A stretch of 64,000 bases of DNA, from contig NZ_CP063779.1 of the NCBI RefSeq assembly GCF_021596945.1, positions 4,190,001-4,254,000 of the forward strand, given 5' to 3'. Origin of the DNA: Mongoliitalea daihaiensis. Its GTDB lineage: Bacteria > Bacteroidota > Bacteroidia > Cytophagales > Cyclobacteriaceae. The translations under genes were made by a program, and so were the position numbers. The notes under the pieces are model-generated. The model saw only the letters and a program-made list of their open reading frames with translations, did not search any database and was not told the origin of the DNA. The first letter of the stretch is position 1; each line of letters starts with the position of its first letter. Shown one piece after another: positions 58,668 through 62,939 of this stretch.

Positions 58668-60197
58668 TTAATCGATTAGCGAACTGCTGAGGATTGCTAT
58701 TGCTGTTAATATCCCCTCCTTAAAATTGCCCAAACGTAAGTTCTCATTGGGCCCATGCTGATTATTGTCGGCGTTGACTGTCACTACGGTAACCGCAGGT
58801 ATATTATCCAATGCATCTACAAATGGCGCTATCGGGAGTGAACCTCCACTGATACGTTTGCGGATAGGTTCTTTGCCAAAAGCTTTAACCATGGCTTGGT
58901 TCAACCAAATCCCTGGCTCGGAGTCAAATGGAGTTCGGAAGGCTTTGTATGAAATGGTACCCTCCCATTTAATCAACTTCGGATAAGTGATCCGCTCTTC
59001 CTCGGTAGGATCTTTATCCAATATATGGTATCCTTGGTCTTGGATGTATTGGCGAATAAGTTCAAATAGCCGCTCAGGATCGGATTCTGGAACCAATCGA
59101 ACATCGATCTCTGCAATAGCCTCTGCCGGCACAATAGTTCTTGCCTCCATACCCACAGAGCCGGAAGAGAACCCACGGATATTTAAACTTGGATATTGGA
59201 TGGATTCCTGGTAGGTCTCTCCTACTTTATCGAATTCAGCAATACCGATTTTTCGCATAATCTCTTCATCTATATCAGGCACTTGACGTAAAATTTTCTT
59301 TTCAGCATCCGTCAAAACAATCCCATCATAAAAACCGGGTATAATCACCCTTCCTTGTTCATCTTTCATACTGCTGAGCAATTGCGCCAATCGAAAAGCG
59401 GGATTTGGTGCATAATTACCATAATGACCACTGTGCTGATCTGCCCTTGGCCCGTACATAGTCAAGGTGATTTCAGAGATTCCCCGAGCTCCGAAACTGA
59501 GCGTGGGTTCATTGCTTACATGTCGAGGTCCATCCATAATCAACATCATATCTGCTCTCAATTTGGTGGCATGTCGAACTACAGCAGAAGCTAAATGAGG
59601 TGATCCAATCTCTTCTTCAAAATCCAATACTACTTTGATGGAATAATCGGGGCTAAAACCAACTTCTGAAATAGCATCCCAAGCCGTCAAAAACATCGCC
59701 AAAGGACCTTTATCATCCGAGGCAGAGCGGGCAAAGACCCTCCATTCCGGATCATAATCATTCTCCAAAGTATTCATGGGTATCGTCTCCCAGCTACCAT
59801 TGGGACTCCTTTTTTTCAAGGTAGGCGTAAACGGGGATGGCTGATCCCACTGCTCAGGAAATACCGCTTGTCCATCCATATGAAAATAAAACAACACTGT
59901 CTTAGTAGCTGTGGGATGGTTCTTGGAAGCTAGTAATAATGGAAACCCATCTGTCTCTAATCGTTCCACCCCCCATTGACGGGCTTGAAAATTTTGCTCA
60001 CACCATTCCAAATTAGGCCATAATTGCTCAGGGTAATGAGAATCGTTGGGAATGGACAGCAATTCATTCAATATCCCAACGCCAGGAAGAAAGTATTTAT
60101 CTGTAAGTTGATGGATATCTAATGTTGATGTTTGTTGCGCAAGAACATTACAAGATAACAACATGGATAAAGCAATGAGGTAAAAACGTGTCTTCAT
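58668..60197 (-). CDS. M20 family dipeptidase/metallopeptidase, exported
   Basis: 509 aa from MKTRFYLIALSMLLS (ATG 60197). Signal peptide, possibly lipoprotein (LLSC) or cleaved after LAQ. M20 metal ligands are in FYFHMDGQAV, SASDDKGPLA, LDFEEEIGSPH and the C-terminal NQHGPNENLR; the dimerisation domain lies between about 230 and 390. Cuts di- or short peptides in the periplasm. Its first five codons and upstream region lie in the left 254-bp repeat of the adjoining IS element, but the gene itself is intact. Confidence 0.93.
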   Translation of the reverse strand: MKTRFYLIALSMLLSCNVLAQQTSTLDIHQLTDKYFLPGVGILNELLSIPNDSHYPEQLWPNLEWCEQNFQARQWGVERLETDGFPLLLASKNHPTATKTVLFYFHMDGQAVFPEQWDQPSPFTPTLKKRSPNGSWETIPMNTLENDYDPEWRVFARSASDDKGPLAMFLTAWDAISEVGFSPDYSIKVVLDFEEEIGSPHLASAVVRHATKLRADMMLIMDGPRHVSNEPTLSFGARGISEITLTMYGPRADQHSGHYGNYAPNPAFRLAQLLSSMKDEQGRVIIPGFYDGIVLTDAEKKILRQVPDIDEEIMRKIGIAEFDKVGETYQESIQYPSLNIRGFSSGSVGMEARTIVPAEAIAEIDVRLVPESDPERLFELIRQYIQDQGYHILDKDPTEEERITYPKLIKWEGTISYKAFRTPFDSEPGIWLNQAMVKAFGKEPIRKRISGGSLPIAPFVDALDNIPAVTVVTVNADNNQHGPNENLRLGNFKEGILTAIAILSSSLID

Positions 60198-60436
60198 CAA
60201 TACGAGATTTGGTGATGAAGTTAATGAAGCGTGCCGCAAAAGCAAGTCAAAAAATTACTAAAGGCGAAGAATGCAGATAGTTGGTGTGAATATCTATTCC
60301 AATACAGAATTCACACCAACGAGTGATTAGTTCATAAAAGCAAAAGAAACCAACACCGAATCAGTGATTTTCTTGGCCTCTGTTTGCAATACGGGTTCCT
60401 CATAAGCGATGGATGCATCCATCGCCATAGTTTTCA
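60183..60436 (+). repeat. 254-bp direct repeat, left copy (target duplication of the IS1634-like element)
   Basis: Identical by eye to 62091-62344 at a constant offset of 1908 bases, and both copies abut the element's terminal repeats exactly. It contains the first five codons of the M20 gene, the M20 upstream region, a hairpin (60280-60320) and the last 36 codons of the SIMPL gene. Confidence 0.92.
60327..60436 (-). pseudogene. Duplicated 3' fragment of the SIMPL gene
   Basis: Exact copy of the last 36 codons of the gene at 62235, cut by the IS at 60436. A by-product of target duplication, without a start. Confidence 0.85.
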
Positions 60437-62090
60437 CCTGTTTTGTGCGGGCACACTTTAGTTCAAAATTAAGTCATTGAAATTTAATGGATTATTTCGA
60501 TTGATTTTGTGTTTTTGGGTGTCTCGGATTATTTTTAGTTTATGTTTGTGAGACGTAAAAGGAATTCTAGCGGTAGCTTTAGTGTACAGATTATCCAAAA
60601 AGTAGGCAGAATCAATAAAGTTGTCAAGTCATTAGGCAGTTCTTTTGATGAATCAGAGCTTGTTCTCCTTGAAAGGCAGGCCTTACTTGAAATTGAGAAA
60701 ATGAAGGGTCAGGCTTCCCTGTTTTCCAATGATAGGGATACCAACCTAAAATCTGTGCTTTCCAATGTAAGTAATAGCGAAATAGAGCTTATTGGTCCTG
60801 ATAATATTCTTGGAAAGGTTTATGAGTCAATAGGGTATCACACTATCGGATTAGATGAGCTTTTCAGAGACCTGATCATGTCTAGGCTTGTTTATCCTGG
60901 ATCCAAGCTGAAAACCATCGATTATCTTGCCAGGTTCAAGAACAAGGAAATCAGCGTTTATTCCATCTATCGGTATATGGATAAGATCCATAGAAATTAT
61001 AAAGATAGGATTGAAGCGTTGACATTTAAACACTTCAAGGATATTTTAGGGGGGGAATATCGGCCTTATTTTTTACGATATGACTACGTTATACTTCGAG
61101 GTGCCAGATGAAGATGATTTACGGAAAATAGGCTATTCAAAAGACGGCAAGCATCAGCATCCCCAGATCAAATTAGGGTTGCTAGTAGGACCTGATGGCT
61201 ACCCCTTGGGGTATGATATTTTTGAAGGAAGCACTTATGAAGGGCATACACTTATTCCTGTATTGAAGAATATTGAAAAGAAGTTTTCTATTGACAAACC
61301 TATTGTGATTGCTGATGCAGGTTTACTGTCATCGACCAATATCGATGCACTCATCAGCAATGGGTACAAGTTTGTCCTAGGAGGTAAAATCAAGAATGAA
61401 AGTGCTGAAATCAAAAATAAAATCCAACAACTGGAGGTTACCGAAGACAAACCAAGGGAAGTGAAAAAGGATGGTTATAGGCTTATTGTGAGCTTTTCAG
61501 AAAAACGGAGGAAGAAGGATTCTCATAATCGGGAAAAGGGCCTTAAAAAGCTTGAAAAAAAGGTTAAAAACGGGAAACTAGATAAAAATAGCATCAATAA
61601 CAGAGGGTATAACAAATACCTCAAGTTGGAATCAGAAATAAAAGTAGCTATCGATTACACTAAATATGAAATGGATGCTAGATGGGACGGTTTGAAGGGC
61701 TATCTGACAAACACGTCTATGAAGCCAGTTGAAGTCATTGCAGCATATGGAAACCTGTGGCATATCGAGAAAGCTTTCCGAATAAGTAAAACTGATATCA
61801 GAATAAGACCTATTTATCACCGTATACCAAGAAGAATAGAAACACACATCTGTATCTGTTTTGTGTCTTATGCAGTTTTCAAGGAGCTAGAAAGAATGTT
61901 AAAAATATCTAAAGCGGGTTTTTCTGCAACAAGAGCAATAGAGCTGACAAAAAACATGTATCAGATAAAAGTTTTCCTTCCAGATTCAAAAACTTATACA
62001 ACTATACCGCTTAAACCAACCGAGGAACAGCAAGAACTTATCTCAGTTATTATGAAAATTTAGCGTGGGTGTCCCATCGCACAAAACAGG
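60437..62090 (+). mobile_element. IS1634-like insertion sequence, 1654 bp
   Basis: Ends carry the inverted repeat CCTGTTTTGTGCG (60437-60449 and, inverted, 62078-62090), with weaker matching (GGCACAC / GGGACAC) further in. Holds one transposase frame broken by a frameshift. Flanked by perfect 254-bp direct repeats, consistent with the long variable target duplications known for IS1634 and IS1549. Confidence 0.88.
60542..62063 (+). CDS. IS1634-type transposase with a frameshift at a G7 run
   Basis: Two overlapping frames (60542-61111 and 61080-62063) together give a normal-size IS1634/ISNCY-like DDE transposase. The N-terminal frame covers the start and helical part (LGKVYESIGYHTIGLDELFRDL). 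In the second frame the sequence reads GGNIGLIFYDMTTLYFE, the first Asp motif, then VIADAGLLSSTN (second Asp) and NLWHIEKAFRISKTD (Glu). Dropping one G from the seven Gs at 61049-61055 fuses both frames without a break. It is either inactive, a base-calling error, or made by slippage. Confidence 0.85.
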
Positions 62091-62344
62091 AAAACGTGTC
62101 TTCATCAATACGAGATTTGGTGATGAAGTTAATGAAGCGTGCCGCAAAAGCAAGTCAAAAAATTACTAAAGGCGAAGAATGCAGATAGTTGGTGTGAATA
62201 TCTATTCCAATACAGAATTCACACCAACGAGTGATTAGTTCATAAAAGCAAAAGAAACCAACACCGAATCAGTGATTTTCTTGGCCTCTGTTTGCAATAC
62301 GGGTTCCTCATAAGCGATGGATGCATCCATCGCCATAGTTTTCA
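62091..62344 (+). repeat. 254-bp direct repeat, right copy
   Basis: Identical to 60183-60436. Includes the intact end of the SIMPL gene (62235-62344), its hairpin, and a stray copy of the first five codons (MKTRF) of the M20 gene cut by the IS. Confidence 0.92.
62188..62228 (-). terminator. Hairpin after the SIMPL gene
   Basis: GTTGGTGTGAAT (62188-62199) and ATTCACACCAAC (62217-62228) form perfect 12-base arms seven bases after the stop; the T-tract is weak. An identical copy is at 60280-60320 in the left repeat. Confidence 0.55.
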
Positions 62345-62939
62345 TGGAGCGCATTACAGGTGAAAAACCTTTATCTTGAGTGGAATATTGTACTTTGAAC
62401 ACCTTAATCTCCGCTATCCCCATGGTCTTAGCGATGATTTCTGCTTTGGTACGAGCATCTTCTAAGGCCATTTGTAACAATTTTTCCTGAGATGCTTTCA
62501 TGGCTTTTTCAGAAACCTGAAACTGCAAGTTGAAGCCAGACTCTACCGAAGTGTGCAAGGCCTCAATTACTTTGGCAAGGTCTTTTTGGGTATCAGAAAC
62601 GCGCACGCGGGCCATTTGAGAAGCAATGAACCCAATATCCTGATAGGTGCCATCCTTATAAATTCTATCCAAATTGACAGTGTAATTTTCGACAAATAGT
62701 TCGTAGGTCTGCACACCTGTCTTTTTCAAAGCCTGCTCCAAGGTACGCATGCGCTTGTTCAATTCATTGGTAGCTTCGGCGGAAGTCCTCCCTTTTTGGG
62801 ACATATTCAAGTAGATCAATACTTCATCCGGCTGAATACTGATTTCACTTTTTCCCTCAACCTCAATTAAAGGAACTTGCTGTGCCATTGCTCCCAATAA
62901 TAGGAACATCCCGGCGATGGTCAAAAGAAGCTTTCTCAT
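62235..62939 (-). CDS. SIMPL domain (DUF541) exported protein
   Basis: 234 aa with signal peptide ending GAMAQQ. DUF541/SIMPL hallmarks: IEVEGKSEISIQPDEVLIYLNM, the helix EATNELNKRMRTLEQALKK, YTVNLDRIYKDG and a C-terminal VLVSFAFM. Periplasmic; family function poorly defined (BP26/SIMPL type channel-like oligomer in studied members). Its last 36 codons were duplicated by the IS1634-like insertion, but this copy is complete. Confidence 0.92.
   Translation of the reverse strand: MRKLLLTIAGMFLLLGAMAQQVPLIEVEGKSEISIQPDEVLIYLNMSQKGRTSAEATNELNKRMRTLEQALKKTGVQTYELFVENYTVNLDRIYKDGTYQDIGFIASQMARVRVSDTQKDLAKVIEALHTSVESGFNLQFQVSEKAMKASQEKLLQMALEDARTKAEIIAKTMGIAEIKVFKVQYSTQDKGFSPVMRSMKTMAMDASIAYEEPVLQTEAKKITDSVLVSFAFMN

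Follow-up and report, generated by a model that had tools for sequence, protein, structure and literature searches.

The window analysed here, a stretch of 64,000 nucleotides from the genome of Mongoliitalea daihaiensis, contains an insertion sequence (IS) lying between an M20 peptidase gene and a SIMPL (DUF541) gene, the features of which are collected in Table 1. The element is 1654 bp long and its 13-nt terminal inverted repeats (CCTGTTTTGTGCG) are perfect and abut, on either side, direct repeats (DRs) of 254 nt that are 100% identical to each other, exactly as the initial annotation had reported, down to the coordinates. The start codon of the M20 gene (60195-60197) falls in the left DR copy together with about 239 bp of upstream sequence, in which the tail of the SIMPL gene is repeated, while the right copy holds the final ~110 bp of the SIMPL gene itself. 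Chance is ruled out as the source of a 254-bp exact repeat bounded so precisely by inverted repeats, since three further full copies of the element in the same genome (one 4.8-Mb contig) show the same architecture at unrelated sites, their DRs being perfect and 45, 56 and 605 bp long.

Table 1. Features of the insertion and its neighbours (positions in the window; a caret marks the joint between target and IS)
Feature	Position	Strand	Remarks
M20 peptidase gene, intact	58668..60197	-	ATG inside left DR; ORF + Pfam
Left DR copy (target-site duplication, 254 bp)	60183..60436	.	Repeat comparison + empty site
C-site junction ..TTCA^CCTG	60433..60436	+	C at -2; one target cut
IS1634-family insertion sequence, 1654 bp	60437..62090	+	
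Left terminal inverted repeat CCTGTTTTGTGCG	60437..60449	+	
Transposase ORF, N-terminal part	60542..61111	+	189 aa as assembled
G7 homopolymer splitting the transposase frame	61049-61055	+	G6 in three other copies
First catalytic D	61077-61079	+	Just upstream of the ATG of the C-terminal ORF
Transposase, C-terminal part	61080..62063	+	Pfam DDE_Tnp_1 + IS1634 equivalog
Second catalytic D	61314-61316	+	
Catalytic E	61767-61769	+	
Right terminal inverted repeat	62078..62090	-	CCTGTTTTGTGCG on the - strand
T-site junction ..GTTTT^CCTG	62091..62094	-	Read towards right IS end; other target cut
Right DR copy (target-site duplication, 254 bp)	62091..62344	.	Repeat comparison + empty site
SIMPL (DUF541) gene, intact	62235..62939	-	ORF + Pfam

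The C-terminal part of the transposase matches the NCBIfam IS1634 equivalog (NF033559) with 291 bits against a cut-off of 100, which bears out the family to which the element had been assigned initially. Members of this family are 1500-2000 bp long with ends of the form C-----YT (PMC2266710), and both the length of the window element and its ends (CCTGTTTT) agree with this description. In an alignment of 10 relatives D179, D258, E409, Y402, L405 and K416 are invariant, and at the Y-(2)-x-(3)-E-(6)-K motif the window transposase reads YGNLWHIEKAFRISK, without the R of the IS4 type, as is characteristic of IS1634. The IS4 family proper, with Tn5 and IS10, likewise has DDE transposases, and in structural comparison the fold predicted here (pLDDT 79) comes closest to Tn5 transposase (TM about 0.4, E 5e-6), but its YREK motif carries an R where L405 stands here, and its target-site duplications, of 8-13 bp in the Tn5 type, differ from the variable ones of this element. 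The published family table gives a target duplication of 5-6 bp and names IS1634 and IS1549 as long-DR exceptions (PMC2266710), in contrast with the four different lengths in this genome (254, 45, 56 and 605 bp); this figure divides subgroups within the family and membership of the IS1634 family stands.

As assembled, the transposase frame is split at a G-run, and this is probably a homopolymer assembly error, since relatives have a single open frame of about 506 aa and the four IS copies of the genome show zero substitutions in 1650 bp, their only differences being single-base indels, nearly all in homopolymers. These indels differ among the window copy and the three others (L002, L003 and L004), and each breaks the transposase frame. 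Programmed frameshifting at the G-run was considered and rejected, because the relatives have one ORF and all differences among the copies are single-base indels, nearly all of them in homopolymers. The differing indels in the four copies also point to long-read assembly errors elsewhere in this genome.

Evidence on the origin of the repeat was obtained from a congener (G001) that lacks the IS. The window without the IS and one DR aligns with this genome over 2093 bp at 88.6% identity with 3 gap positions, and the 254-bp segment is present there once. This single copy at the empty site excludes a pre-existing repeat, and the comparison establishes the 254 bp as a true duplication of target DNA. 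Two of the checks that the initial annotation had proposed, namely a search for other copies in the genome and an examination of a relative lacking the IS, turned out in its favour: the three sister copies all have long perfect DRs, none of them short or absent, and the congener carries one copy of the segment, not two. Its claim that a single transposition event duplicated a long piece of the target is thus upheld by the empty site together with the different perfect DRs of the sisters, and its description of the event as recent is reasonable, the DRs being identical and the IS copies free of substitutions.

That the insertion preserves both neighbouring genes, as had also been proposed, is true here, where both ORFs are whole, and is common elsewhere, but it does not hold as a rule. 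Among 38 insertions, mostly from complete genomes, the DR lies across a gene end in 21, so that the full gene survives in one copy, is intergenic in 8, and is wholly intragenic in 9, in which case the gene is broken. Such insertions often keep both neighbour genes whole, in a sample that is seen after selection and is thus no evidence of targeting.

Relatives with CCTG-type ends were collected from genomes of the same family, from a sample of the phylum and from a GTDB scan, yielding about 100 insertions with precise junctions. Those in Bacteroidota have DRs of 5-854 bp, mostly perfect, and examples from one complete genome with 16 full copies (G113) range from 73 to 728 bp, which strongly supports the earlier suggestion that the long-duplication mechanism works in this phylum. 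A few of the surveyed DRs are slightly decayed (98-99.8% identity). Long DRs were also found outside Bacteroidota, in Campylobacterota, Actinomycetota and Carnobacterium, and those of plasmid-borne relatives measure about 680 bp in Aliarcobacter, 56 bp in Actinomyces, 47-224 bp in Rhodococcus, about 608 bp in Mycobacterium riyadhense and about 309 bp in Carnobacterium. One DR copy of the Carnobacterium plasmid (L240) contains, around 2722-2850, a palindromic insert of about 125 bp (CCTAGTTATG...CATAACTAGG), possibly a MITE-like element. DRs of 4-6 bp were found in Geobacillus, Acidiphilium, Streptomyces, Mesorhizobium, Alicyclobacillus, Sphingobium and Dietzia.

In a maximum-likelihood tree of the transposases, in which L039, an 86% relative, stands for the window element and from which true IS1634 and IS1549 sequences are absent, a branch with support 100/98 parts a side with 31 long DRs and four that are short to intermediate (5-13 bp) from a side with 9 short and 0 long. 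The two marks of a variable-DR subgroup are therefore both present, i.e., variable perfect DRs made by transposition and a clade apart from the short-DR members, and the window element, ordinary as an IS, joins this variable-DR IS1634 group as a new member. Very short DRs also occur within the variable-DR clade (10, 5 and 7 bp at L094, L104 and L048), so that DR lengths form a continuum with no separate long class. Complete genomes yield long perfect DRs (above about 130 bp) more often than do the loci from short-read assemblies and MAGs (L085-L164), a difference that would be expected if contigs break at repeats exceeding the assembler k-mer. Such breakage may have hidden the phenomenon and may bias database surveys towards short DRs.

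Long, variable and perfect DRs of 8-514 bp have been described for IS1634 of Mycoplasma mycoides and IS1549 of Mycobacterium smegmatis (PMC2266710), which share with the window element both an IS1634-family transposase and DRs of this kind, and which differ from it in host phylum; the DRs of the surveyed group also extend further, to 854 bp. ISPfe2, the Acidiphilium element and ISGka5-like elements belong to the same NCBIfam family and have ends of the CC-G-TT type but make target duplications of 4-6 bp (PMC3281130, PMC4549789, PMC8024623) and fall on the opposite side of the 100/98 branch. What had been two anecdotal elements becomes a clade spanning several phyla, and it is this spread of the variable-DR property, together with the pairing of unlike junctions described below, that makes up the valuable part of the analysis. 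In textbook DDE transposition the target duplication measures a few bp, as dictated by the spacing of the two active sites, a rule to which IS1634 and IS1549 have been exceptions since 1998-99. A 2008 review noted that no mechanistic model for long DRs had yet been proposed (PMC2266710), and a puzzle about 25 years old now becomes testable.

Junctions were read 5'-3' along the target flank towards the IS end. When pooled they are T-rich, but the two junctions of a single insertion differ from each other: one, the T-site, reads (C)TTTTT^, with T at both -2 and -1, and the other, the C-site, reads C-T^ or C-N^, with C at -2 in 85% and T at -1 in 75%. At -2, T is paired with C in 61 of 79 insertions, with A or G in 11 and with another T in 2, and no T is found in 5; exactly one T thus occurs in 72/79, compared with 39.7 expected under independent ends (p = 7e-15), and for pairs made up of C and T only, 61 are hetero and 5 homo (Fisher p = 5e-13). 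This one-T rule, broken by 7/79 insertions, is obeyed by 36/38 of those from long-read or near-complete genomes and by 17/18 hold-out insertions that were collected after it had been fixed (p = 2e-4; both sets combined, p = 2e-18). In Actinomycetota A/G-rich ends replace the T-site, with the single C-site kept in 6/6 insertions. The insertion in the window has its C-site (TTCA^) at the left junction and its T-site (GTTTT^) at the right.

In 39 insertions the T-site adjoins the left IS end and in 33 the right, and the side varies even between near-identical IS copies of one genome. As the two ends are used about equally, the asymmetry comes from the target or from the order of events and not from the IS end; judging by these junctions, the two target cuts are non-equivalent and each of them can be taken by the left or the right end of the IS. 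The idea that the IS inherits flanking dinucleotides from its donor site was rejected, since near-identical copies in one genome carry the T-site on the left or on the right. The T-site/C-site rule appears to be undescribed in the literature searched, although the original IS1634 and IS1549 papers may note part of it. GC content is lower in the DRs than in their flanks (37.4 vs 41.1%, p = 3e-6), perhaps an effect of intergenic location and of ends rich in T. For T-sites within genes the W strand is opposite to the ORF in 13/16, a bias that was given no weight because A-tracts in coding strands would yield the same.

On the evidence of the junctions, the IS ends join two opposite-strand target positions 5-854 bp apart, and the intervening DNA is always duplicated and never deleted. 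The best explanation, to which we assign a probability of roughly 0.6, is a recent insertion of a variable-DR, IS1634-family DDE transposon by an asymmetric, probably sequential two-cut route. A synthesis-coupled version of the sequential route can be put forward tentatively. One IS 3' end would attack the A-tract strand at the T-tract (5'-AAAAA), host polymerase would extend the freed target 3'-OH with strand displacement and, after variable travel, the second IS 3' end would attack the other strand at a 5'-AG of weak specificity (the C-site), with gap filling and ligation then giving two DR copies whose length would be set by the distance travelled. The DR lengths (5-854 bp) fit a single exponential with a mean of 272 bp (Lilliefors p = 0.45), which is what random travel would give. 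The strand reading 5'-AG..TTTTT-3' was parallel to the replication fork in about 12/18 cases when polarity was sampled by GC skew in two genomes, which is not significant (two-sided p about 0.24).

Binding of the transposase to the sliding clamp would be a plausible tether during such travel. An IS1634-family transposase is known to bind the beta clamp via a C-terminal Q-x-x-L-F motif, with stronger binding raising transposition (PMC4549789), and the Q of this motif (Q496) is invariant in ten aligned relatives. The motif is family-wide and is no explanation for the confinement of long DRs to one side of the tree, since reports of both the motif and clamp binding extend to the short-DR subgroup. 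The proposed route works like LINE-type target-primed insertion, in which the first cut falls at a T/A tract and a less specific second cut sets a variable duplication, although this is an analogy from general knowledge that implies no relationship: unlike a LINE, the window element has DDE chemistry and neither reverse transcriptase nor an RNA intermediate. If true, the sequential route would be the DNA-transposon counterpart of target-primed insertion, and duplication length would be set kinetically and not via transpososome geometry. In any case, the quantitative rule of one T-site with one C-site and exponentially distributed lengths is a constraint that any model must meet.

The order of the cuts and the role of the polymerase are inferred, and identical junctions would result if the transposase engaged the target through two distinct pockets at the same time. 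A single transpososome could capture a looped target with T-tract and C-site half-sites independently of synthesis, and this would account for the hetero-junction rule, the two motifs being short and protein-readable, as well as for duplication-only polarity if the sense of looping is fixed. Such a complex, which we consider unlikely, would nevertheless have to bridge anything from 5 to 854 bp irrespective of the helical turn, the DR lengths showing no phasing (resultant 0.14 at 10.5 bp, n=50), and long strand-displacement fill-in would still be required.

Attack by uncoupled IS ends on independent sites, in one duplex or in two sister chromosomes, with only the duplication class surviving, would cover variable lengths and perfect DRs without special enzymology. 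It is improbable, as it predicts independent and equivalent junctions, in contrast with the strong negative association observed, and deletions about as frequent as duplications. Complete genomes contain few DR-less copies, and the junction pairs of the 21 that have long flanks (10 hetero and 11 homo, as against 72:7 among DR-bearing insertions, Fisher p = 4e-5) look random, as expected for flank exchange via recombination or misassembly and not for deletion. Exchange of this kind can be traced in two genomes: in G127 the left flank of L047 is the right flank of L052 (524 bp), the converse holding for 320 bp, and in G248 L341 and L353 show the same reciprocal swap over 281 and 156 bp. Given random pairing and these two swaps, no deletion-type insertions need be assumed.

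Since flank exchange between IS copies does occur, the repeat could in principle predate the IS, which would then have entered an existing tandem repeat or arrived by homologous recombination, but this is very hard to reconcile with the single segment copy in the congener and with the DRs of all copies, which abut the IS ends exactly, at unrelated sites and with different lengths. Least credible of all is a repeat created during long-read assembly, for although homopolymer errors are probable in this assembly, the architecture is seen in dozens of independent assemblies, several with DRs decayed to 98-99.8% identity, and an error would give no junction motif.

Other traces of IS1634-family elements and their activity were observed. 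Long DRs make recombination between IS copies traceable, and the swaps in G127 and G248 are footprints of it, in G248 of a 43-kb inversion. The genome of the window also contains a truncated relative of the IS (L005, G000:C1:4566777-4567032), comprising 256 bp of the left end at 94% identity, and another IS1634-family transposase gene, distinct from that of the IS and interrupted by in-frame stops (G000:C1:2918865-2920552).
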